A stretch of DNA of 56,395 nt from Thermotogota bacterium (GTDB lineage: Bacteria > Thermotogota > Thermotogae > Thermotogales > Fervidobacteriaceae). The translations under genes and the position numbers were made by a program. Below the pieces are notes generated by a model. That model saw nothing but the letters and a program-made list of their open reading frames with translations. It was not told where the DNA came from and ran no database searches. The DNA is taken from the NCBI GenBank assembly GCA_030550315.1, contig JAUQPP010000005.1:1-56395 (forward strand), in the 5' to 3' direction. Of this stretch, positions 5,135-19,236 are shown piece after piece; within the stretch, counting starts at the first letter, position 1; each line of letters opens with the position of its first letter.

Positions 5135-6955
5135 GTGAAGAAACTTGTTCTTCTTGGACTGTTGCTAGTTGGAGCTTTCTTGCTTGCAACACAGGTCAAC
5201 TACGGTATCTTTGCAGACATCACAACAACGAACGTGTGGAACTTGCTAGGTGCCGGTTCGACGAGCTGGAACTTCGCTGTCCAGATTTGGAAATACCCGT
5301 CGATTCTCGGAATGAACAAAGACGGCATGCTCATTCCGGCCGCGGCAGCGGAAATCCCGAAACTTGTTAAAGAAGGCAACATGTGGACTGTTACAGTCAA
5401 GCTTAGAAAAGACATGCGTTGGTCCAACGGTGCACCGTTCACGGCTGATGATGTTGTGTTCACTTACACGACTGTCAAAGAATTGGAGATTCCTGGTGGA
5501 AACTGGAGCGGTGCTTACGAGCCGGAAAAGGTTGAGAAAATCGATCAGTGGACAGTTAAGTTTTACTTCAAGGAAAAGAGGACCATTAGAATATTCTACG
5601 ACACACTCATGACCACCATAGTTTGTAGCAACTATTGGAAACCAATTGTCGAAAAAGCGAAAAAGCAGAAAGATCCCGTAAAATGGCTCCTTGCTCAGGA
5701 AGTTATTGATCCGGGCATCGCTGCACTGAACCTTGGAAAGATAGAGAAAGGTGCGTTTGCTCAAGTCACAAAACAAGTTTCTGACGATAAGTACTGGGCG
5801 TTCGGTGAAAAGAGCATATACTACAAAAATGGTGGCTTTGCTATCGTTAATCCGAAGACCGGGTTCAAGTGGCAGAGTGACAACCCGAAACCAACCGGCG
5901 CAGTTGATCTGGAAGTTGCTAATGGGCCTTTCGTGAACACCATCGTTTACAAGATATACGGTAATAAACAGGTTGCTATCCAAGCCCTGATCGCTGGAGA
6001 CATTGACTACATCTACAACCCCGTTGGACTCACCGCAGGTGAAGCGGAACAGCTTAGAGGTCAGAAGGACATAAAGGTTGTCTCCAACCCGCAGCTCGGT
6101 TTCAGGTACATCGCGTTCAACATGAGAAAGTTCCCAATGAGTGTTAAGGAGTTCAGGCAAGCGATTGCTGCTCTCGTTGACCGTGACTTCCTGTGCAACC
6201 AAGTGCTCAAGGGAAGGGCTATACCACTTGCAACACCAGTTCCACCAGCTAACACGTTCTGGTACAACTCCGCTGTTAAGACGATTGGTGAAGGCTTGAG
6301 CATGGGAGAAAGGTACCAGCTCGCCGTTAGCTTGCTCAAGAAGGCTGGATTCAAGTGGGATGTTGAACCGGTCATAGATCCAAAAGATACGAAGAACCCG
6401 GTTAAGACACCTGGTAAAGGTTTGAGGGGCCCGGATGGAAAGCCAGTTCCAGAAATCGAATTCCTGTCACCGGGTATGGACTACGACCCGATGAGGGCTC
6501 AGACGGCTATGTACATCGAGCAGTGGGCAAAGAACATTGGTATTCCACTCAAACTAAAACTGACCGACTTCAACGAAATCGTAACAAGAGCGTTTGAAGA
6601 GGTTAACTTCGACATGTATTACCTTGGTTGGGGTATCGGAAGGATACCAACCTACTTCAGGTCCTTCTTCCACAGTGCGGAAATGGCACCTGAGGGAAAC
6701 AACACACCTGGTTATGCTAACCCAGAATTCGACGCACTCATCGATGAATTCGAATTTGCCGATAACTTCGAACAGGCGAGGAAAGCAATATTTGAAGCTC
6801 AGAGGATTCTTGCTGAAGATCTACCATACATAGTTGTCTTCACAAACCCGATGATCGAGGCTTACAGAACGAACATCAAGTTCCCATACGACACAGTTCT
6901 CGGAGGAATCAACAACTACTACGGATTCCCGGAAAACGTCAAGAAGGTTCAGTAA
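5135..6955 (+). CDS. Family-5 (oligopeptide/oligosaccharide-type) ABC transporter substrate-binding protein
   Basis: The 606-residue exported protein starts with a Sec signal (MKKLVLLGLLLVGAFLLA) without a lipobox cysteine. It contains the SBP_bac_5 hallmarks WTVTVKLRKDMRWSNGAPFTADDVVF (quoted as the segment around residues 80-108 of the precursor), FRQAIAALVDR and a C-terminal EAQRILAEDLPYIVVF. It would capture solute outside the membrane and pass it to the two permeases encoded next. In Thermotoga, importers of this class carry oligosaccharides as well as peptides, so the ligand is open. GTG at 5135 follows GGGAGGGG by 6 nt. A strong promoter lies upstream and a stem-loop separates it from the permease gene. 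Confidence 0.93.
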   Translation: MKKLVLLGLLLVGAFLLATQVNYGIFADITTTNVWNLLGAGSTSWNFAVQIWKYPSILGMNKDGMLIPAAAAEIPKLVKEGNMWTVTVKLRKDMRWSNGAPFTADDVVFTYTTVKELEIPGGNWSGAYEPEKVEKIDQWTVKFYFKEKRTIRIFYDTLMTTIVCSNYWKPIVEKAKKQKDPVKWLLAQEVIDPGIAALNLGKIEKGAFAQVTKQVSDDKYWAFGEKSIYYKNGGFAIVNPKTGFKWQSDNPKPTGAVDLEVANGPFVNTIVYKIYGNKQVAIQALIAGDIDYIYNPVGLTAGEAEQLRGQKDIKVVSNPQLGFRYIAFNMRKFPMSVKEFRQAIAALVDRDFLCNQVLKGRAIPLATPVPPANTFWYNSAVKTIGEGLSMGERYQLAVSLLKKAGFKWDVEPVIDPKDTKNPVKTPGKGLRGPDGKPVPEIEFLSPGMDYDPMRAQTAMYIEQWAKNIGIPLKLKLTDFNEIVTRAFEEVNFDMYYLGWGIGRIPTYFRSFFHSAEMAPEGNNTPGYANPEFDALIDEFEFADNFEQARKAIFEAQRILAEDLPYIVVFTNPMIEAYRTNIKFPYDTVLGGINNYYGFPENVKKVQ

Positions 6956-6979
6956 TAATTTTTCCGAAATACCCCTTGT

Positions 6980-7000
6980 CCTCCCCCCGCAAGGGGGAGG
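6980..7000 (+). terminator. Stem-loop between binding protein and permease (attenuator-like)
   Basis: An 8-bp GC-rich stem, CCTCCCCC (6980-6987) with GGGGGAGG (6993-7000), closes a 5-nt loop and is followed by a weak TTTAATT tract. Its place between a binding-protein gene and its permease fits partial termination or 3'-end protection that keeps binding protein in excess over membrane subunits. Confidence 0.6.
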
Positions 7001-7047
7001 TTTAATTGGTAAAGTCTTGGCGAAGTCTGAAAAAAGGAGAGGTGAAG

Positions 7048-8433
7048 ATGACGAATCCGGTCCTGATATTCGTATTTGCAGGTCTTTTACCGGCAGTAGG
7101 TGTTGTTTACGCTATTTATAAAGGAAAAGCTCCGCAAAATTACATATTTTTAGCCATCTCACTTGCGCTCTATTACGGAGCGCTCACTAATTTTAGATAC
7201 CTTTACCTTTTCAGTCCTAGGTTTAATTACATACTCGCACCTATTATCTACTTCTACGGGTTCAACCTTTCAGGGCTTTCGAAATTCATCCGAAACAGAC
7301 TTGCACAAATTGTTTTGTTACTGGTGATTTACGTCACGGTTGTATTTTTCATTTTCCTCGCCATGCCAGGTGACTACACTACTAAGTTCCTGCAGGATCC
7401 AAAGATTAGGCAAAACCCAGAAGTCTACGAACGTATGAAACAACTCTTTGGAGTCGACGACCCGTGGTACGTTAAGTATTACAAGCACATGAAAAACTTC
7501 TTCAACCTTGAACTGGGAATATCTTTCAGTGAATACCCAAAGCGCGTTGAGGAAATAATTGCCGAGAGATTGCCGCGAACTTTGTTTCTTTTCCTTGCGA
7601 GTTCCGTGTTGTCCTTCCTACTAGGGTTCGATCTTGGAAAAAGAATAGCCTGGAAGCGTGGTGGGCTAACAGATAAAATGGCCACGTTCGTAGGTATTGT
7701 TTTCTGGACGATATTCACGCCATTCTATATGCTCATACTCATTTGGTTATTCGCTGTCACGCTGAGGCTTTTCCCGCTTTCAGGTTTCATTACACCAACG
7801 AAATGGTTCGATGCACCGTTCAGTGCGCAAGCGGTGTTCATTAGGTTACTCCTCACAGAATTGTTCATGCTCGTAATGTGGATTATCGGTATAGTGGTTG
7901 CTGGTAGGTTGAAAACTATAAGAGCGAAGAGAACTGCAATTTGGGGTTTCGTAATTGGCGGAGCAATTATTGCTTTCGTGTACTGGGCAGCGAACGGTAT
8001 GGGAACGTACGCACTTGATATTGTGCATCACTTGGCACTGCCAGTTATTGCACTTGTTACGCTGCACTTTGCGGGTGATATGCTGGTAATGAGAGATACA
8101 ATGCTTGAGGTCATTAAGGAAGATTACATTACGACAGCACGTGCAAAAGGACTCCCAGATAAGGTCATCAGAGACAAACACGCAGCAAGGACGGCACTCT
8201 TACCTCTTATGACGAGCTTCGTTATTGGACTTGCGTCGACCGTGAGTGGTGGAGTTATCACCGAGACGATGTTCTCCTGGAAAGGTATGGGATTGACACT
8301 CCTGGAAGCGACAACAGCTCAGGACACACCCCTTGCAATAGGTTGTCTTGTTTTCACCGGTGTGCTCGTTCTTCTCGCACACCTTGTGGCCGATATACTC
8401 TACGCGTTCTTAGATCCTCGAATAAGATACTGA
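7048..8433 (+). CDS. ABC transporter permease, DppB type, enlarged
   Basis: This is the first membrane subunit of the importer, 461 residues against roughly 310-340 for ordinary DppB/OppB. The family core begins near residue 85 (FIRNRLAQIVLLL), with the PGDYTTKFLQDP segment and the cytoplasmic coupling region VIKEDYITTARAKGLPDKVI that docks on the ATPase. Two additions are visible: about 85 N-terminal residues with hydrophobic helices, and an extra membrane segment around LFMLVMWIIGIVV and AIWGFVIGGAIIAFVYW in the middle. ATG at 7048 has GGAGAGGTGA just upstream; a TTG at 7006 has no such site. It is followed 18 nt later by the second permease. Confidence 0.9.
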   Translation: MTNPVLIFVFAGLLPAVGVVYAIYKGKAPQNYIFLAISLALYYGALTNFRYLYLFSPRFNYILAPIIYFYGFNLSGLSKFIRNRLAQIVLLLVIYVTVVFFIFLAMPGDYTTKFLQDPKIRQNPEVYERMKQLFGVDDPWYVKYYKHMKNFFNLELGISFSEYPKRVEEIIAERLPRTLFLFLASSVLSFLLGFDLGKRIAWKRGGLTDKMATFVGIVFWTIFTPFYMLILIWLFAVTLRLFPLSGFITPTKWFDAPFSAQAVFIRLLLTELFMLVMWIIGIVVAGRLKTIRAKRTAIWGFVIGGAIIAFVYWAANGMGTYALDIVHHLALPVIALVTLHFAGDMLVMRDTMLEVIKEDYITTARAKGLPDKVIRDKHAARTALLPLMTSFVIGLASTVSGGVITETMFSWKGMGLTLLEATTAQDTPLAIGCLVFTGVLVLLAHLVADILYAFLDPRIRY

Positions 8434-8451: not shown

Positions 8452-10926
8452 ATGGTGCAAACCGCTTTGAAGAGAGAATCAATAGCGAAGATAAAGTTTA
8501 AGCTTTTTATAAAGAACTTCAGGAAGAACTGGGCATTATTTAGAGAGAGCAAGATGGGAATGTTCGGCCTCTGGGTAATCATTGCCTTTGGTATATTCGG
8601 GGCCTTGTCTCCCATTGTACTCAACCTAGTTGATCCGAGTATCTACGATCCGGTTATCGGGCTTGATAATCGCGTTCTTTCATCAAAGTACATCACGGAT
8701 TTCCTCTCCACTCAAAATTTAATAAAAGGAATAGAGATACCTGCTGCGCAACTCTGGGTTTATTCCTTTATGGACCAAGGCGAAGATTTCAGGGCACGTA
8801 TGGAGGACTTAGTCAGAAGTGCACAATATGAGATCATGAACACTTACGCTCCGGATAGCATGAGACACTTTCTCGATACAATAGCCGACAGTTACATACC
8901 GGCAAAAGAACGAATGTATTTCCAAACGAGCATCTCTGAACTTGTTGACAAGGGTGTGATAAAGGTAGCCGCGATTACGTCGGTTAGGGACGTTGGTAAC
9001 AGGGACCGTTTTTCATTTGGCGATTTCTCAAGGCTTTTGGAAAACGTTGATTACAAAACTCTTGCGTTGGCAATATCCCCGTACAAGGATACGGACGAGT
9101 TTTCACGCGTGCTCTTGTGGTTCAGGGGACTTAACAGAAATAATCCAGAACTTGTCGCGGAGTTTGAGCGAATTGCTAACGGCTCCCATAGCGAGGAAGA
9201 AGTCAAGCGGGCTGAGGAAGAGGTTCTAGAGGTTGCCAGAAAGATCGTTGATGAAAGTTCAAAAGGAGGCCAGGTCAACGTATCTTCGAACACGCAACTT
9301 ATGGAGATCATTGCAACCGAAAGTGTTCCAGTCTCAGGATTGATTAACGCGGCAGCGTTCACACTTATATCGGATATTCTCGTCCTCTCAAAGGAAGACG
9401 AGGAACTTAGAAAGGCATTGGAAAACTCACGGTTTAAGGATTTGATAGCGATTGCCGAATCGAAGCTTTCGAACATTGATAATCCTGAAATATTGAAACC
9501 GGCGTTGGATAAAGCACGCACGAGTATCAGCAACATTTTGAAAGAGATGAATGAGCTCGGTTTTAATGTCAAAGTTGAAGATGTGGAAAGGTTCCTCGAG
9601 ATATACTCTGGTATGGAGCTTGCCAAAATATCCGTTGATATCGGTCCGGAGTACAGGGCAAAGCTCGAAGAGAAGCTCGCGGAAGTGTCGCGAGAAGTTC
9701 GCAAGGGTTATGTTGCGCAACTTAACAGCATATTCCTCAAAATCGCAATGGCGAGAACCTTTATGGCAAGCCTCCTTGGGACGAAAGATGTTCCCGGTTC
9801 GTACGAAACACTTGGTTCAAAGGTCATAGCGTCTCTGGCAGATCCGGTCGTTTCGTTGATGGCTTATGCGTTCGCTGGTAGTAGCAAGTTGCAAAAGGTG
9901 ATAAGTAATATAGAAAACTCCCAGCTTGACGATTTCCGACGGATGGATATTGTGGAAAAGCTGAAGAACCTCCAGGAACCTGTTGAGGCTGTGAGGTTCC
10001 TCATAGGAGAAGGAGACATAGACGATGAGATTTACGAAGCGCTCGTAATAGAACACGTTAGAAACTTGGTGGATCCTTCCGAATGGAACAATGTCAAAAA
10101 ACCGTCGGACATAGAAAAGAAAGAAAAAACAGTGTGGAACAAGACGTTTGCCGAAAAGAAATTGATAGAGATATTCAACACCATGTCTATTACCAACAAA
10201 ATTGGTATAGGTCATCCACTTCCACCAAGCAGGTGGCACTGGCTTGGAACGGATCCGGTAGGTAGAGATGTGCTTGTACAGTTGATGGTGAGTACTCCAA
10301 GCGAGTTCGTACTTGGTGTTCTTGCGGCGTTGATAACCGTTACAGTTGGTACAATCATCGGAACAGCGTCGGCGTACTACGGAGGAGTTGTCGATGCAAT
10401 TTTCATGCGAATTGCAGACCTCATGATGCTTTTCCCGACAATTGCGTTTCTGATTGTTCTCTCCGGATTCATGACGATGAACTTGTTCAAACTTGCTCTG
10501 ATACTTGGTTTGCTCGGAGGTTTCGGTGGAATCACGCTTGTTCTCAAGGCGCAAGCGTTGACCGTTAAGGTTAAACCTTACATAGATGCGGCACGTGTAT
10601 CCGGTGGTAGTCACGCATACATCATTTTCAACCACATAATTCCGAACGTTATGCCACTTTCGTTCCTTTACATGATGTTTAACGTCACCGGTGCGGTATT
10701 CTCCGAAGCTGTTCTGAGCTTCTTCGGACTTATGAAGGTACGAATGTCCTGGGGATTGATGATAAACACCGTATGGAGTTCCGGTTACCTTGGCTCGGGT
10801 AACATAGGGGCTTATTGGTGGCTCTGGGTGCCGGCCGGTGGTGCGATCACGATCTTTTGTTCGGCGTTTTACTTCCTTGGTAGAGGCCTTGAAGAAATCG
10901 TTAACCCAAGACTGAGAAAGAGGTGA
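8452..10926 (+). CDS. ABC transporter permease, DppC type, with ~520-residue extracytoplasmic insert
   Basis: The second membrane subunit has 824 residues; ordinary DppC/OppC proteins have about 280-300. The N-terminal helix (MGMFGLWVIIAFGIFGALSP) is followed by a long, mostly hydrophilic and helix-rich stretch from about residue 67 to 590. The normal permease then resumes at WLGTDPVGRDVLVQL (about residue 595), with four or five helices and the coupling loop YIDAARVSGGSHAYIIFNHIIP. Because the insert sits between helix 1 and the conserved GTDxxGRD block, it should lie outside the membrane. Its function is unknown; contact with the binding protein is an obvious possibility. ATG at 8452 follows an AGAGGTGA/AAGG site. 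Confidence 0.9.
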   Translation: MVQTALKRESIAKIKFKLFIKNFRKNWALFRESKMGMFGLWVIIAFGIFGALSPIVLNLVDPSIYDPVIGLDNRVLSSKYITDFLSTQNLIKGIEIPAAQLWVYSFMDQGEDFRARMEDLVRSAQYEIMNTYAPDSMRHFLDTIADSYIPAKERMYFQTSISELVDKGVIKVAAITSVRDVGNRDRFSFGDFSRLLENVDYKTLALAISPYKDTDEFSRVLLWFRGLNRNNPELVAEFERIANGSHSEEEVKRAEEEVLEVARKIVDESSKGGQVNVSSNTQLMEIIATESVPVSGLINAAAFTLISDILVLSKEDEELRKALENSRFKDLIAIAESKLSNIDNPEILKPALDKARTSISNILKEMNELGFNVKVEDVERFLEIYSGMELAKISVDIGPEYRAKLEEKLAEVSREVRKGYVAQLNSIFLKIAMARTFMASLLGTKDVPGSYETLGSKVIASLADPVVSLMAYAFAGSSKLQKVISNIENSQLDDFRRMDIVEKLKNLQEPVEAVRFLIGEGDIDDEIYEALVIEHVRNLVDPSEWNNVKKPSDIEKKEKTVWNKTFAEKKLIEIFNTMSITNKIGIGHPLPPSRWHWLGTDPVGRDVLVQLMVSTPSEFVLGVLAALITVTVGTIIGTASAYYGGVVDAIFMRIADLMMLFPTIAFLIVLSGFMTMNLFKLALILGLLGGFGGITLVLKAQALTVKVKPYIDAARVSGGSHAYIIFNHIIPNVMPLSFLYMMFNVTGAVFSEAVLSFFGLMKVRMSWGLMINTVWSSGYLGSGNIGAYWWLWVPAGGAITIFCSAFYFLGRGLEEIVNPRLRKR

Positions 10927-10931
10927 TGATT

Positions 10932-11933
10932 GTGCCGGTGATAAAGGTTGAGAATTTGAAAATGTACTATAAAACCAAAATGGGTTATGTCCAAGCGGTC
11001 GATGGTATTTCATTTGAGCTTGAAGCTGGTGAAAGTCTCGGTATAGTCGGAGAATCGGGTTGTGGTAAAACCTCGGTTTCTATGACTCTTCTTCGCACAT
11101 TACCTGAGAATGCCCATTTTATGGGAGGGCACGTGTGGTTTAATGACAACGGTAAAATGGTTGATTTGACACAACTACCTGAAGACGAGATGAGGCATTA
11201 CAGATGGCGCGGAATTTCGATGGTCTTCCAGGCTGCAATGAACTCGCTTAATCCAGTTTATAAAGTGGGAGACCAAATTGTCGAAGCAATTTTGAACCAT
11301 TATCCGGACACACCTATCGACCAAGCGAAAGCGAAAGTGGCAAAGCTCTTCGAGTTGGTCACGCTTGACCCTAAGAGAATGGAACAGTATCCACACCAGT
11401 ACAGCGGTGGTATGAAACAGAGAGCTGTAATTGCACTTTCCCTTGCTTGTGATCCGAAGGTTATAATTGCAGATGAACCAACAACGGCTCTTGACGTTAT
11501 CGTTCAGGATAAAATCCTGAGGGAACTGAAGAAAATACAAAAAGAGCTCAACATGGCAATGATATACATTTCACATGACATCGCAGTCATTGCCGAGGTT
11601 AGTGATAAAATTGCAGTTATGTACGCTGGAAAGTTCGTCGAAGAAGCGGACTCAACGACGATATTCAAACGTCCAATGCATCCCTACACATTCCTCCTTA
11701 TGAACGCGTTTCCAAGCCACGTGGGACCGAAGAAGAAGCTCTTTACAATACCTGGAGAACCACCGAACCTGTTGAATCCACCGAAAGGCTGTCGATTCGC
11801 ACCACGCTGTCCATGGGCGGACAATAGATGTCGAGAGCAGGATCCGGAGTACGTGGAAGTTGAAAAAGGCCATTATCTTGCATGTTGGCATCCGTTGACC
11901 GAAGAGGTGAGACAGAATGAGCTTAGAAAATAA
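10932..11933 (+). CDS. ABC transporter ATPase, OppD/DppD type
   Basis: The 333-residue ATPase energises import. It shows Walker A GESGCGKT (40-47), a Q-loop in SMVFQAAMNSLNP, the signature YSGGMKQR, Walker B VIIADEPTTALDV and a switch His in ISHDIAVIAE. The C-terminal oligopeptide-transporter extension has the cysteine pattern CRFAPRCPW, CREQDP and LACW, which in related DppD proteins can hold an iron-sulphur cluster. GTG at 10932 fits best with the GAGGTGAT site at 10920-10927; GTG 10923 and ATG 10926 are in frame but too close to it. The 3' end overlaps the next ATPase gene by 17 nt. Confidence 0.94.
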   Translation: MPVIKVENLKMYYKTKMGYVQAVDGISFELEAGESLGIVGESGCGKTSVSMTLLRTLPENAHFMGGHVWFNDNGKMVDLTQLPEDEMRHYRWRGISMVFQAAMNSLNPVYKVGDQIVEAILNHYPDTPIDQAKAKVAKLFELVTLDPKRMEQYPHQYSGGMKQRAVIALSLACDPKVIIADEPTTALDVIVQDKILRELKKIQKELNMAMIYISHDIAVIAEVSDKIAVMYAGKFVEEADSTTIFKRPMHPYTFLLMNAFPSHVGPKKKLFTIPGEPPNLLNPPKGCRFAPRCPWADNRCREQDPEYVEVEKGHYLACWHPLTEEVRQNELRK

Positions 11934-12930
11934 AGGAAAAAAGACGCTCCTTGAGGTAAAAAATCTCAAAAAGTACTTTCCTGCAGAACGCGCACTCTTT
12001 GCACGTGCAAAGCACTTCGTACACGCGGTGGACGATGTTTCATTTGAGCTTATCGAAGGTGAATCCTTGGGACTTGTTGGTGAATCCGGATGTGGAAAGA
12101 CCACAACGGGTAGGATGATTGTCAGGCTGGAAACCCCCACGGACGGTATAATAAAGGTTTACGAAAAGAATATAAACGAATACAACAGGATGGAATACCA
12201 CTCCATGGTACAGATGATATTCCAAGACCCTTACGAATCACTTAACCCGAGGATGACAATTTTTGACATCATAGCTGAGCCGTTAAACATCCACAACGTT
12301 GGTACTCTTGAAGAGAGAGAGGAAAGAGTGATGAAACTCCTTTCGGAGGTTGGTTTGACTCCTCCGGATAGCTTCCTCTGGAGGTATCCGCATGAACTTT
12401 CTGGTGGCCAGAGACAACGTGTAGCAATCGCAAGAGCACTTGTTTTAAACCCGAAGCTTATAGTTGCCGACGAACCAACTTCAATGCTTGATGTTTCTGT
12501 ACGAACGGGTGTTATGCAACTTATGATGCAACTTCAGGAGGAGCACAGTGTATCGTATCTGTACATAACCCACGACCTTGCCGTCGCAAGGTACATGGTT
12601 AACAGGATAGCGGTTATGTACTTGGGAAAGATCGTAGAACTCGCTGAAACCGAAGAGCTCTTGAGTCATCCACTACATCCGTACACGAAAGCGCTAATGG
12701 ATGCCGTTCCAGTACCGGATCCGGAGTATAAGCGCTCAGAGCCAAATATCGTAGGTAACATCAGCGTTCCTATCGATCCACCACCGATATGCAGGTTCTA
12801 CGACCGCTGCCCGTTCAGGGAAGTGCTCGGAAACAGATGTAAAGTCGAGGAACACCCTCCGCTAAAGGAAGTTGCACCGGGCCATTACGTGGCGTGTTAT
12901 GCGGTACACGAGGGGAAGATTATGAAATAA
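11917..12930 (+). CDS. ABC transporter ATPase, OppF/DppF type
   Basis: The partner ATPase has 337 residues. Motifs are GESGCGKTTTGR (Walker A), QMIFQDPYESLNPR (Q-loop), LSGGQRQRVAIARAL (signature), LIVADEPTSMLDVS (Walker B) and YITHDLAVARY (switch His). The C-terminal extension again has clustered cysteines (CRFYDRCPFR, CKVEEHP, ACY). It would pair with the preceding OppD-type subunit to form the nucleotide-binding heterodimer under the two permeases. The start is ATG 11917 behind GAAGAGGTGA, inside the end of the preceding gene. The operon ends at a strong hairpin 13 nt after the stop. Confidence 0.94.
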   Translation: MSLENKGKKTLLEVKNLKKYFPAERALFARAKHFVHAVDDVSFELIEGESLGLVGESGCGKTTTGRMIVRLETPTDGIIKVYEKNINEYNRMEYHSMVQMIFQDPYESLNPRMTIFDIIAEPLNIHNVGTLEEREERVMKLLSEVGLTPPDSFLWRYPHELSGGQRQRVAIARALVLNPKLIVADEPTSMLDVSVRTGVMQLMMQLQEEHSVSYLYITHDLAVARYMVNRIAVMYLGKIVELAETEELLSHPLHPYTKALMDAVPVPDPEYKRSEPNIVGNISVPIDPPPICRFYDRCPFREVLGNRCKVEEHPPLKEVAPGHYVACYAVHEGKIMK

Positions 12931-12943
12931 TATAAAACTCAAA

Positions 12944-12972
12944 GGGCTCCGGAGCACCGGAGCCCTTTTTAT
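12944..12972. terminator. Bidirectional rho-independent terminator
   Basis: A perfect 9-bp stem, GGGCTCCGG (12944-12952) with CCGGAGCCC (12957-12965), has a 4-nt loop. It is followed by TTTTTATTTT on the plus strand and, read the other way, by TTTGAGTTTT. It lies between two convergent genes. Confidence 0.92.
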
Positions 12973-12982
12973 TTTCAGGAAA

Positions 12983-14716
12983 TTACTCCCTGTACAGCCA
13001 GTCGAGGTTCCAGGTTGTTCCACCGAGCAGTCCAATTGCTACGTTTTTGACGGAATTTTTCCAAGCAAAGAGTCTGACGGAGATACAGGTGTAGACCACA
13101 GGGAGGTTATCCGAGACGAGTTTCTGGAACTTTGACCAGTAGTCTTTTACGACACCTTCATCGAGTATTCTCACATTTTCGGCAAAAATTCTGTCGATTT
13201 CCTTTTCAAAGTCTGGTACATAGTAGGCGCTGGGGTCAACCCATGCTGCGTTTTTCGGTGAAAGGTTCCACACGTGCAACGTTCCTTCTATCCTCCAAAC
13301 ATTGGCACCACCTTGGGGTTCGTCGGAACCTGTTAATCCCATGATCCTGGCATCCCAGTCACCAACGTTGAGTGTTCTGTGAACCAGCGTGTTGAAGTCC
13401 GTGGCAACGAATGTGACGTCCATTCCGAGTTGCTTTAACGCAGAAGTTACGATGTTTCCAACGCCCTCCCTGACGACATTTCCTGCGTTCGTCTCGATGA
13501 TGAATTTCACAGGTCTTCCCTTGCTGTCGATGAGTCTTCCGTTCTTATCCCAGCTGAATCCACCGAGTTTTAATTCTGCGCGGGCCTTATTCAAATCGTA
13601 CGGGTACTTCGTCACTACCTTGTCGTTGAAATAAGGAGATGCAAACGATACAGGCGACCACTGTTCGTATCCGAGTCCGTTGAAGAGTGTGCTGATTATC
13701 TTCTTCTTGTCAATGGCGTAAGCTACGGCCTTTCTGAAGTGAATGTTTCTGAACCAATCCCTCTTTGCCTCGTCTTTGTTGTTCCAATTAAATGAAATGA
13801 ACTCTGTTCCAAGTCCTGGGCCAGCTGATACAACGGTGATGTTTAAGCGTTTTTCGTTCTCTTTAAAATATGAGAATTCCGTTCCCCTCGGTGAGTAGAT
13901 ATCTACTTCACCTTTTTCGAAAGCGAGTTTCTGGGCATCTTGCGATGAGATTATCTTGAAGATTACCTCGTTGAGGTACGGCAGTTGTACGCCGTTCTTA
14001 TCCTTCTTCCAATAGTACGGGTTTGCCACAGCTTTAACATACTGGTCTGGAACGTATTCAACAGGGATGAACGGTCCAAGTCCGACGAGTTCTTTCTTGT
14101 TAATCGAGTCGACTGTCCAAAATTCAGCGAATTTCTTTTCCTTTACCCATTTTTCGGCAACGTGTTTCGGGAAAATGTACATACCACCAAGATACCTAAA
14201 CGCAAGTCTGAACGGTTCTGGATAGTACATCCTAACGGTGTAATCGTTAATCTTCGTAGCTTTTGGCAAATGACCGTTCGTACTCTTAATCACGTCTTTG
14301 TACGAGCTTGGGATATCCGGGTTGTTGTAGATCTCGTTCAGGCTATAAACAACGTCGTCCGCGGTGAACGGCTTGCCATCGCTCCACTTGACGTCCTTTC
14401 TAAGGTACCATATAATCTCCATTCCACGATCTTTTGTTAGCCTTGGACCATCCCATCTCTCAGCGAGTGCTGGATAGAATTCCTTATCGACGCCATGACG
14501 TTCGATGAGCGTCCCACCGTAACCCATGAATAGTGCAATGATGTCCGTTGAGCTCGTTTCTTTTGCAACCGTATAGTTCATCGTTCTTGGGCCAGTGAGT
14601 GTTGGAATAATAAGTGTTCCACCTTTTTTACCTGTGGCGTTCGAACCAATGTAGTTCCCAAATACCGTTCCAATCACCGCGATGATGGCGAGGACCGTCA
14701 AAAACGACTTCTTCAC
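12983..14716 (-). CDS. Family-5 ABC transporter substrate-binding protein (orphan)
   Basis: The 577-residue exported solute-binding protein has a hydrophobic signal (FLTVLAIIAVIGTVFG). SBP_bac_5 features include GGTLIIPTLTGP at the mature N-terminus, LRKDVKWSDGKPFTADDVVYSLNE, and a FRKAVAYAIDKKKII block. It has no permease or ATPase of its own nearby and converges on the complete importer, so it may serve that importer as an alternative receptor. GTG at 14716 was chosen because AGGGGGGAT lies about 6 nt upstream. A 32-nt quasi-palindrome lies 43 nt upstream of the start. Confidence 0.9.
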   Translation of the reverse strand: MKKSFLTVLAIIAVIGTVFGNYIGSNATGKKGGTLIIPTLTGPRTMNYTVAKETSSTDIIALFMGYGGTLIERHGVDKEFYPALAERWDGPRLTKDRGMEIIWYLRKDVKWSDGKPFTADDVVYSLNEIYNNPDIPSSYKDVIKSTNGHLPKATKINDYTVRMYYPEPFRLAFRYLGGMYIFPKHVAEKWVKEKKFAEFWTVDSINKKELVGLGPFIPVEYVPDQYVKAVANPYYWKKDKNGVQLPYLNEVIFKIISSQDAQKLAFEKGEVDIYSPRGTEFSYFKENEKRLNITVVSAGPGLGTEFISFNWNNKDEAKRDWFRNIHFRKAVAYAIDKKKIISTLFNGLGYEQWSPVSFASPYFNDKVVTKYPYDLNKARAELKLGGFSWDKNGRLIDSKGRPVKFIIETNAGNVVREGVGNIVTSALKQLGMDVTFVATDFNTLVHRTLNVGDWDARIMGLTGSDEPQGGANVWRIEGTLHVWNLSPKNAAWVDPSAYYVPDFEKEIDRIFAENVRILDEGVVKDYWSKFQKLVSDNLPVVYTCISVRLFAWKNSVKNVAIGLLGGTTWNLDWLYRE

Positions 14717-14759
14717 AACTATCCCCCCTACCTGGCAAGTTAAGTTCACTTGGTGACTG

Positions 14760-15618: not shown

Positions 15619-18600
15619 TCAATCTCCCTGGCTTTCCACCATGTTTTTCAATTCCAGGTAAATCTCATTAAGTATTGCTTGGTAGTCAGCCCCATTTTCC
15701 ACCAAATCCATCTCAGCTTCGAGTTGTCTCGTTCTCTCTTCAGAAACGAGTTGAGCAAACTTTTTTGAAACGTAATCGTAAACCTTGACACCGAGTTCCG
15801 TGGGTATAAGCTTTCCGCGTTTCTTAGTCTCCGTTACGTACAAGCGTTCAAGTAGTACCTTGACAATTTTCGAGTATGTGGATGGACGTCCGATTTTCCT
15901 TTCCTTCATCAATTCTACCACATCTCCCTGCGAAAAGAGTTGGTATTTTGGTGAGAACCAACGCTTCACGGAGGCGATTTTAATTTGGTTTCCTTCGTAA
16001 AGTTTCACAACCTTTGGGATGTTAAGTGGTAAAATGAGATTCCAACCGTGTTTTATTATCTGTAAGTATCCTTTGTATTCAAAAGTCAGTTCTTTTGTTG
16101 AGAGTACCGCTTCCTGGAAGAGAACTTGTGTTGGGGTCATTTGTGAGGCAATGAATCTCCTGAATATCATCTCATACAGCTTTAAGTGATCAGGTGATAA
16201 TTTTTGGCTGGTGGTGAGTGTTTTTGTTTGTAGCAGCTGCTGTAACTTTATTGCATCGATCGGTCTTGTTGGTCTTATACACTCGTGCGTTCCCTCTCCA
16301 GCCCACTTTCGTGGGAAGAAGTACTCGATTCCGTGCTTTTCAGAAATGTATTCCTTCGCTATTTCAACGCCAACGTTACTTACGTGTGTTGAGTCCGTTC
16401 GAATGTAGGTTATCAAGCCTGTTTCAAAAAGATCCTGAGCAAGATTCATTGCGTAGTCTGCGGGAAATCCAATTTGAGAAGCATCTCGGAGTAACGTGGC
16501 TGTTATGTACGGTGTTGGAGGCTGGAGTTCTCTTTCTTCCAATTTGACAGCCGATACAAACACTTCTCCATCTTCTAATGTTGGTTTGAAGTCCGGTTCC
16601 AACTCTGCGCTCAACTTCACACCGTTTTCAAGGAACACAACTACGGTTTCGACCTTCTCTTTGAGAAATTTGTTGTACCGTTCGATTATCCAACCGAGTA
16701 CCGGAGTCTGTACTCGTCCAGTTGATAGCCTGTTGTTTTTGAAAGTTTTCCAAAGCTTTTGGCTGAGTCCGAAACCGATCCAGCGGTCCTCAATTCTACG
16801 CACAAGTTGTGCTTCGACCTTTGGCAGGCTTATTTCTCTCGCTTCGTTTATAGCCTTAATTATTGCATGTCTTGTGACTTCGTGAAATTCCGTTCTCTTG
16901 ATGGTCTTTGCGTAAGGCTTTAAGGTGTTCGCAACATCCCAAGCAATCTTTTCACCTTCTATGTCCGGGTCCGTTCCAATTAGAACTTCATCTACTTCTG
17001 ATGCAAGTTCTATCAGCGCTTTTAACGTATCGGCGCTGTTCACGATATTTTCGGCCCCGCATCTAGGACAGACTAGAGGGTCCTGTGCGTCAACAAATTG
17101 GTATCCACAAGACCTGCATCGTTTAATTGTGTCATACACTGGATAAAAACGACTTATGCCGTCCTTTTTTGTGACCAACACACCGTGGTAACCTTCATTC
17201 GTCACTAAATCGACCACGTGACCTCCGGTGGCAACTATTGTGATAATTTTGTCACCGGCTGTGACTTCGTAGGTTAATACGTTTCCCACCTTACGTCGTG
17301 TTGGCTGACCAAAGAAACTTGCAATTGTGCGTGCTTTGTTCGGTGACTCTACTATGAAGAGTGAAGATTTCACAAGGTCCCTCGTGTGTTCAGTTACTTT
17401 ACTTTCCATGATGTCTCGCACACGTTTTCGATCCGTGTCTATTTCGTGCATTAACGACCCAATATCAACATCTGCAAGAGGTATCAAATTGAACTCTGGG
17501 TAATACCACCTCATGTGTCTTGTTAATCCCTTCAGAAGCTTCTCATCGTCAAGCATGATTACAGATAATCCTTTTGTGACACCGCCAACGAAGAGTCTTG
17601 AAGCTCTCCCAGTGGCTTGGATGTACGTACGTACATCTGGTATCTTTACACATAACCTGTTGCCGTTGCGTTCAACTGACAAGAACTTGCTTTCACCGAG
17701 TTTGGCGATGAAATCAGGTTTTTCGAATAACTTGAGAATGAAATTCGCAATTTCCTCGAGCTTCAATGCTTCTTTAGGATGAATTCTTTCACGGCTTGCA
17801 AGTCCTTTAAGGAATTCGATGTATCGTTCGGCCTTTTTTTCCTCGGAACCGGTGAGTAGGTCGATAAGATCTTCAAGAACGCTCATCAACTTTAAAATAT
17901 CGGGTCGTTCCAGTTCCACATTGAATTTGAACTTTGGAACACCGGTGAATACCACGTACCTCACGATGTGCGGGAGATCTATGCCGCGTACAAGTAGACC
18001 GTAGTAAGTGGCTACGCCGACAAGTACGTCAAGTTCGCCCTTTTCAAATCTCTCGATATCTTTTTTTTCCGAATGAACCACGACACCTGCCGGCACACCT
18101 TTTTGATTGAGATGTTTGGCAATCTCTTGAGCGAGTTCGGTTCCCTGGTCCACAGGTACGAATATCAACCCACCCTTCCCAAGCTTGCTGACGATAGAGC
18201 TCAACTGTTCGAGAATATCATGTTCAATGGTAACATACGTATCAACGACGTTCCTAAGCGAGCTCTTTCCGCTTCCAATTTCGAATCCGAGTAATTCCCT
18301 AAGGAGCCTTACCCTATCACCCTCGGCCTTCGCCGTCGCGGACGCCACAACGAGCAAGCCGGTCTCATTGGTTTTTTTGAAGTTTTCGATTTTCTCTTCA
18401 AGGTACTCTATGTGTTTGATTATTTCTTCTATTTTCTCTGACCTTCCTGACGCGCCACCTTTTTTATCTGTTTGATTATCGAGTAGATACCTTGCCATTT
18501 GTGTTCTGAAGTTCAAAAGTTCCCAGGCAGTTTCGAGAATGTAGTCCGGAAAACCTATCAAAGTGAGTACACGTTCTACATTTTTTGACGCTTTTAAAAA

Positions 18601-19236
18601 TGCATCTACATCGTCGACGAAAACAAAGTGAAACCTCTGATTTGAAAGTAGCTCAAAATTTTTTGCAAGGAATTGCGTCGAAGTTATTAGAACGGAATAT
18701 TGACCGCTGTTGATTTTTTCTAAGGCAGTGTGTTTTTCCCTGCTATTCATGGACGAGTGGTAAGCAACAATAGGAACATCAGCGTTTAACCTCACGGCAA
18801 AATCTTGAATTCTCCGTAGTGTTTGAGTCACGAGCGTAGTTGTAGGTACGAGGATGTAGGATCTTTTGTTCTCAAGGGCCATCAAAAGACTGGCAAAAGT
18901 GCCAAAGACACTTTTTCCCATTCCAGTTGGTGCAACGATGGAAAAACTTTGTTTCTTTAATACGCGTTTTATCCAGGAACGTTGCGCACTCCAAACGGAA
19001 AACCCTGTAGCACGCAAAAACTTTTCTTCAGCCTCGCGACACTTTTTCTCCAGCTTAACAACACGAGCCCAATCTTTTATGTTACCTGATTCTTCAAGTG
19101 CTCGTGCGATACGTTCGGCGGAAGGATTTTCAAGCGGTTCCGGAAGGCATTTTTCACACAAGTTTCCTGAAGATAAACGTTCATCAGATATGGTTCCTCC
19201 ACAGTTTGGACACAACCCCAAATACAGTGCACGCAT
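15619..19236 (-). CDS. rgy: Reverse gyrase
   Basis: Reverse gyrase introduces positive supercoils into DNA using ATP and is the marker enzyme of hyperthermophiles. The 1205-residue protein has an N-terminal zinc finger (Cys9, Cys12, Cys27, Cys30), a helicase-like half with APTGMGKS (Walker A), VDDVDAF (DEAD-box equivalent) and a QATGRASR motif VI. Its type IA topoisomerase half starts at LFIVESPNKARTI, with a second zinc finger (CRSCGYQF, CPRCGAEN), GTDPDIEGEKIAWD, STGRVQTPVLG, and the catalytic tyrosine in ITYIRTDSTH (about Tyr944). No intein is seen. ATG at 19236 follows GGGGGAT. It is somewhat longer than the roughly 1100 residues I recall for T. maritima. Confidence 0.98.
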   Translation of the reverse strand: MRALYLGLCPNCGGTISDERLSSGNLCEKCLPEPLENPSAERIARALEESGNIKDWARVVKLEKKCREAEEKFLRATGFSVWSAQRSWIKRVLKKQSFSIVAPTGMGKSVFGTFASLLMALENKRSYILVPTTTLVTQTLRRIQDFAVRLNADVPIVAYHSSMNSREKHTALEKINSGQYSVLITSTQFLAKNFELLSNQRFHFVFVDDVDAFLKASKNVERVLTLIGFPDYILETAWELLNFRTQMARYLLDNQTDKKGGASGRSEKIEEIIKHIEYLEEKIENFKKTNETGLLVVASATAKAEGDRVRLLRELLGFEIGSGKSSLRNVVDTYVTIEHDILEQLSSIVSKLGKGGLIFVPVDQGTELAQEIAKHLNQKGVPAGVVVHSEKKDIERFEKGELDVLVGVATYYGLLVRGIDLPHIVRYVVFTGVPKFKFNVELERPDILKLMSVLEDLIDLLTGSEEKKAERYIEFLKGLASRERIHPKEALKLEEIANFILKLFEKPDFIAKLGESKFLSVERNGNRLCVKIPDVRTYIQATGRASRLFVGGVTKGLSVIMLDDEKLLKGLTRHMRWYYPEFNLIPLADVDIGSLMHEIDTDRKRVRDIMESKVTEHTRDLVKSSLFIVESPNKARTIASFFGQPTRRKVGNVLTYEVTAGDKIITIVATGGHVVDLVTNEGYHGVLVTKKDGISRFYPVYDTIKRCRSCGYQFVDAQDPLVCPRCGAENIVNSADTLKALIELASEVDEVLIGTDPDIEGEKIAWDVANTLKPYAKTIKRTEFHEVTRHAIIKAINEAREISLPKVEAQLVRRIEDRWIGFGLSQKLWKTFKNNRLSTGRVQTPVLGWIIERYNKFLKEKVETVVVFLENGVKLSAELEPDFKPTLEDGEVFVSAVKLEERELQPPTPYITATLLRDASQIGFPADYAMNLAQDLFETGLITYIRTDSTHVSNVGVEIAKEYISEKHGIEYFFPRKWAGEGTHECIRPTRPIDAIKLQQLLQTKTLTTSQKLSPDHLKLYEMIFRRFIASQMTPTQVLFQEAVLSTKELTFEYKGYLQIIKHGWNLILPLNIPKVVKLYEGNQIKIASVKRWFSPKYQLFSQGDVVELMKERKIGRPSTYSKIVKVLLERLYVTETKKRGKLIPTELGVKVYDYVSKKFAQLVSEERTRQLEAEMDLVENGADYQAILNEIYLELKNMVESQGD

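Follow-up and report, generated by a model that had tools for sequence, protein, structure and literature searches.

The handover between a substrate-binding protein (SBP) and its permease normally takes place via short loops. The locus described here lies in a window of 56,395 nucleotides from a Thermotogota bacterium (contig JAUQPP010000005.1, positions 1 to 56,395; the window designates the whole of this stretch), and it raises the question of why a DppC-type permease would place about 514 additional residues between its first and second transmembrane (TM) helices, whether these residues are a genuine and maintained part of the importer, and what they may do there.

The operon and its two permeases

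The permease is encoded in a five-gene operon (SBP-DppB-DppC-DppD-DppF), an organization that is kept with and without the insert and in this gene order at nearly all orthologous loci. The features of the locus are the following:

5135-6955, plus strand: DppA-type substrate-binding protein, 606 aa, first gene of the operon (Pfam SBP_bac_5, E 1.2e-48)
7006-8433, plus strand: DppB permease, 475 aa as called (BPD_transp_1 at residues 215-474; BPD_transp_1_N)
7048-7275, plus strand: N-terminal extension of DppB, about three extra hydrophobic helices, confined to the lineage with insert A
8452-10926, plus strand: DppC-type permease with giant insert, 824 aa, single unbroken ORF with ATG start
8665-10206, plus strand: predicted extracytoplasmic all-helical insert (insert A), residues 72-585, about 514 aa (alignment with insertless orthologues; AlphaFold2)
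8665-8964, plus strand: module R1, residues 72-171, best-conserved stretch of the insert (38% identity to family f11)
8965-9276, plus strand: module R2, residues 172-275, five-helix ARM module resembling the FliG C-terminal domain (profile and fold matches)
9277-10206, plus strand: remaining helical insert, residues 276-585, without recognised family
10213-10926, plus strand: normal DppC core, residues 588-824 (93% identity to Fervidobacterium, 60-71% to insertless orthologues)
10923-11933, plus strand: DppD-type ATPase (NCBIfam search; operon order)
11917-12930, plus strand: DppF-type ATPase (NCBIfam search; operon order)
12941-12968, no strand assigned: strong terminator-like hairpin of 12 pairs at the operon end, reading so on both strands

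Two characters place the protein among the Opp/Dpp importers, namely a BPD_transp_1 domain with the permease fold and an operon that also encodes a family-5 SBP, a B permease and two ATPases. BPD_transp_1 (PF00528) was matched by Pfam at residues 633-823 (E 7e-19) and the NCBIfam family Opp4C at residues 588-820; OppC_N over TM1 (residues 25-56) scored 18.9 bits, below its Pfam cut-off of 23.9. In a Foldseek search with the AlphaFold2 model, the core aligned with solved OppC/DppC chains at E values of 1.7e-6 to 7e-5. Operons of comparable type are represented by the solved E. coli DppABCDF (8z1y) and OppBCDF (8z21) and M. tuberculosis OppABCD (8j5t) and DppABCD (8wdb). The window DppC core matches these over about 235-240 columns with 26-31% identity and a target TM-score of 0.62-0.70; their C chains total 274-289 residues and thus have a short TM1-TM2 loop, where the window DppC adds 514 residues. 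An earlier note on this DNA had described an 824-residue protein with a single N-terminal helix and a normal DppC at its C-terminal end, and this description stands, the ORF being intact, with one TM helix at residues 42-60 and the core at 588-824.

The first 33 residues carry a net charge of +7 and are followed by this one strong TM helix, and the core that comes after the insert adopts the usual OppC/DppC fold and orientation, with a positively charged EAA-type loop. In this fold the TM1-TM2 loop is extracytoplasmic and, because the insert occupies this loop, it should face outward, as the same note had proposed. This topology can be regarded as well predicted. A hidden TM helix at residues 294-312 (Kyte-Doolittle 1.87) was considered and rejected, since one extra TM helix would invert the core; in the g4, g5 and f11 orthologues the value falls to 0.64-1.3, with charged residues present.

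The suspected enlargement of DppB was also found (475 aa against about 383 in orthologues). Two start codons come into question, TTG at 7006 (475 aa) and ATG at 7048 (about 461 aa); given the latter, the first 14 or so residues from the TTG may be untranslated. Insertless orthologues begin at about residue 83-93 of the window DppB, and the extra N-terminal helices are confined to the insert-bearing lineage, which bears out the link that had been drawn between the two enlarged subunits.

The SBP gene is present in the operon in essentially all orthologous loci with enough flanking DNA. The N-terminus of its product can be read as a signal peptide lacking the lipobox cysteine, so that the SBP is probably a free periplasmic protein. 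An enlargement of the SBP together with the insert was not seen (606 aa, orthologues having mostly 610-690). Among solved structures, oligopeptide-binding proteins are closest to the SBP, followed by sugar- and peptide-binding proteins, so the substrate could be a peptide or an oligosaccharide. Between the SBP and DppB genes lies a GC-rich hairpin (6979-7000, plus strand), possibly an attenuator or an mRNA-stabilising element that would give more SBP than permease. Just downstream of the operon, a convergent SBP gene (12983-14749, minus strand) shows 82% identity to the SBP of another importer operon of the genome, on contig C105, and has no adjoining permease genes in the stretch read. Further along, a 1205-residue protein (15619-19236, minus strand) looks like a reverse gyrase, with helicase and topoisomerase parts, which would be consistent with a hyperthermophile.

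The insert and its FliG-like module

Insertless orthologues read YDPxxGFDP, a few residues, and then HPxPPSxxHPLGTDPxGRD. Alignment with these proteins shows that in the window DppC about 514 residues (72-585) separate YDPVIGLD from HPLPPSRWHWLGTD, the aligned limits (8665-10206, 514 aa) being close to those first proposed (8650-10222, about 520 residues). The AlphaFold2 model of the insert has 69% helix and zero strand at a mean pLDDT of about 89, in line with the mostly helical nature attributed to it earlier, and the insert is acidic (net charge -19) and cysteine-free. The all-helical fold is well predicted by this modelling. The whole-chain model, built on a 32-sequence alignment, reached a mean pLDDT of 83 and a pTM of 0.64, the latter value making the seating of the insert on the core uncertain.

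Single-sequence searches of the insert against Pfam, NCBIfam and PDB returned no significant match, and a structure search with the whole DppC model gave only weak armadillo/karyopherin-type PDB matches for it. The insert is however not motif-free, although no motif had been recognised in it earlier, since residues 172-275 (R2) form a FliG_C-like module. FliG_C (PF01706) was matched in 10 of 16 orthologue inserts in a Pfam scan; with residues 172-276 alone the match was sub-threshold in 14 of 17 orthologues (best E 4.6e-4), the window R2 scoring 14.5 bits and thus falling below the Pfam gathering score of 23.3. Comparison of R2 with 29 Thermotogota FliG sequences in hhalign gave a score of 32.0 (P 3.4e-5), exceeding both the maximum of 100 column shuffles (17.7) and the score of FliG-M against FliG-C (15.9). 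Searched against all PDB sequences, the R2 profile had nine matches, five of them to FliG, including rank 1 (E 0.11). When modelled alone by AlphaFold2, R2 presented five main helices (pLDDT 90.7), and the first six PDB folds retrieved by Foldseek were all FliG (probability 0.89-1.00, E 0.12-1.3), with the next match at 0.08. These sequence and model comparisons, none decisive singly, jointly make a relationship of R2 to the FliG C-terminal domain well supported.

The two domains are alike in their five-helix layout and in the profile-profile and fold matches, and differ in that R2 is extracytoplasmic by prediction, part of a transporter, only 15-23% identical and below the Pfam cut-off. R2 sits in an ABC permease and not in the cytoplasmic flagellar switch, the true FliG of the genome being encoded on another contig. 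An insert made of five tandem FliG-like repeats was not supported; the match is clear for R2 only, and for R1-R5 the score of 23.7 exceeds the shuffle maximum (22.9) only marginally. For the other modules, no relatives were identified.

Distribution, origin and selection

A core orthologue was found in 47 of 103 Thermotogota genomes, and inserts related to that of the window in 18 of the 103 (15 in family f1, three in f11); two loci of this type, L030 and L031, come from Fervidobacterium MAGs. Insertless DppC orthologues of about 315-350 aa occur in other Thermotogota, Bipolaricaulota and Bacillota, with core identities of about 60-71%; beyond Thermotogota, occurrence of the insert was covered by a pattern-based search and by reading of orthologous loci. 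Most orthologues are without insert, so that it is not a domain shared generally by these permeases, and the finding that the earlier note had named as refuting its reading, a match to a known common domain, did not occur. An assembly artefact or frameshift as source of the insert was ruled out by an orthologue whose insert is 91% identical and by many others, and the recurrence in 18 genomes with dN/dS of 0.04-0.13 argues likewise.

A different insert B is present in family f3 (loci L144-L149, for example L144 1871-4750, minus strand), where DppC has 950-960 residues in five genomes and the copy of a sixth is contig-truncated. Its 638-648 residues precede a YDPVTGND motif, that is, another point of the TM1-TM2 loop than that of insert A, and no similarity to insert A or to FliG was detected. 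In the core tree, the 17 rows with insert A (100/99) and the 6 rows with insert B (100/94) fall in separate clades; two changes, the least possible, are required, making two independent gains the simplest history. On this phylogenetic evidence, insert A is shown to have arisen once within Thermotogota, in the ancestor of its carriers. Horizontal transfer between f1 and f11 is possible (core identity 83%, against 81% to g4/g5). DppB of clade B is longer by about 130 residues, with further helices, located elsewhere than the clade A extension, and insertless orthologues have a DppB with neither addition. That both gains are accompanied by additions to DppB suggests a function of these additions in support of the DppC inserts, though two events are few.

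Three more permeases of the genome (806, 723 and 576 aa; L011 3772-6189, minus strand; L012 3101-5269, plus strand; L013 2998-4725, minus strand) have large inserts after helix 1, without Pfam family and without detectable similarity to insert A. Overall, no homology of insert A with clade B, MalG-like or other DppC inserts was detectable.

For the computable pairs, dN/dS was 0.04-0.13 in the insert and 0.01-0.08 in the core; purifying selection on the insert is thus shown. R1 is the best-conserved module (79% identity to the Fervidobacterium-group genomes g2, 38% to f11), and R3 and the C-terminal part of the insert the least conserved (14% to f11). Identity to Fervidobacterium is about 60% for the insert, 93% for the core and 77% for the SBP. 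The insert therefore diverges far faster than the core and the SBP, which, R1 excepted, is unlike what could be expected for a rigid docking surface.

Possible roles of the insert

Large P1 inserts as such are already known from Thermotogales MalG, and Opp permeases with an enlarged extracellular part from AmiC. Thermotogales MalG1 and MalG2, with about 500 hydrophilic residues of unknown function between TM1 and TM2, were reported in 2008 (PMC2246101). Like the window DppC they are C-type permeases with a lineage-specific large TM1-TM2 region, but of the sugar permease family, and the MalG-like inserts of the genome itself showed no profile similarity to the DppC insert (hhalign probabilities of at most 1.5%). 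AmiC of Streptococcus pneumoniae is an Opp-type permease with extracellular residues 31-278 (ECD1 and ECD2) right after TM1, modelled as a wedge and platform clamping the SBP (PMC11192437). Likened to AmiC by description and not by sequence, the window DppC has a comparable position of its enlarged part after TM1, whereas AmiC is the partner subunit, from a Gram-positive organism, with about 250 residues or half the size. In the literature, searched largely without subscription journals, no equivalent insert was found for Thermotogota Opp/Dpp permeases, nor a FliG-like module in any ABC permease.

By analogy with AmiC ECD1/ECD2, the insert may constitute a permease-attached receptor-docking platform, a reading to which slightly less than an even chance is given; a receptor-docking or scaffold role in the wider sense is plausible. 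Between TM1 and TM2, DppC would permanently carry a helical periplasmic platform tethered to the membrane, with R1 beside the membrane, followed by the FliG-C-like ARM module R2 and then by further helices. The three added DppB helices would probably brace this platform, which would capture and orient the non-lipidated SBP above the channel mouth. Docking is favoured because of the location of the insert, with TM1 before it and the GTDxxGRD block of a normal core after it, the selection acting on it, the two gains accompanied by DppB helices, the non-lipidated SBP of the same operon, the R2 fold class known for stacking (PMC11870540) and the AmiC precedent. Insertless orthologues with similar SBPs presumably function without insert, which counts against docking.

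The main rival, considered unlikely, is self-association, in which R2 and the helices next to it would stack between adjacent transporters to form membrane arrays, much as the ARM domains of FliG and FlgY assemble into rings. R2 is FliG_C-like, and the ARM-like domains of FliG and FlgY do stack between molecules (PMC11870540, PMC13023049), those of FlgY in the periplasm (PMC13023049). FlgY/FlbB/MotE E-ring proteins (MgtE_N/FliG-like ARM) offer a precedent for the fold class as a periplasmic protein-protein module (PMC13023049), although these are flagellar proteins in their own right, bearing a coiled coil, and not permease inserts. Against arrays of this kind, the best-conserved module is R1 and not R2, and most of the insert is without FliG likeness.

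Thermotogota possess an unusual sheath. A somewhat less likely role than self-association would be that of an envelope tether, anchoring the importer to peptidoglycan, toga or another periplasmic partner, or spacing the channel from the outer sheath. Confinement of the insert to Thermotogota would fit this role, as would the unrelated large P1 inserts carried by several other permeases of the genome and by Thermotogales MalG (PMC2246101), but Pfam and NCBIfam searches of the insert revealed no known peptidoglycan- or polymer-binding family, and other Thermotogota have insertless orthologues. It is improbable that the insert is a gate or substrate-handling lid, covering the channel mouth to screen or pre-bind substrate: its position over the pore entrance and the conservation of R1 directly after TM1 would suit such a lid, but no ligand-binding family was found in it, and the SBP and core are conserved irrespective of its presence. 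Neutral or stabilising accretion, that is, growth of an insertion-tolerant loop in thermophiles without specific role, has an equally small chance, given that unrelated inserts at two points of one loop in two lineages and fast divergence are offset by retention in 15 f1 and three f11 genomes at low dN/dS, a well-folded insert model and co-occurring DppB helices.

The receptor-docking reading thus leads the alternatives. Related bacteria have this operon in three versions, one insertless, one carrying insert A and one carrying the unrelated insert B, and these provide a natural comparison set for the contribution of a large P1 domain. A FliG-type fold is predicted inside an ABC permease, and the unexplained inserts of Thermotogales MalG are now extended to a second importer family. 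As a tentative generalization, rated below the docking role itself, the P1 loop of type I importers may have been enlarged in Thermotogota several times independently by giant helical platforms outside the cytoplasm, each time together with additional helices in the other permease subunit. One of these platforms would have taken up an ARM module of FliG/MgtE type, either to capture the receptor in the periplasm or to cluster transporters, which would be a role undescribed for this fold.

Apart from the permeases, a 304-314 aa protein with an N-terminal membrane anchor, a coiled coil and a FliG_C/MgtE-like domain was observed at locus L154 (713-1627) and also at L155 and L156, and these are possibly FlgY/MotE-type flagellar E-ring proteins in Thermotogota.
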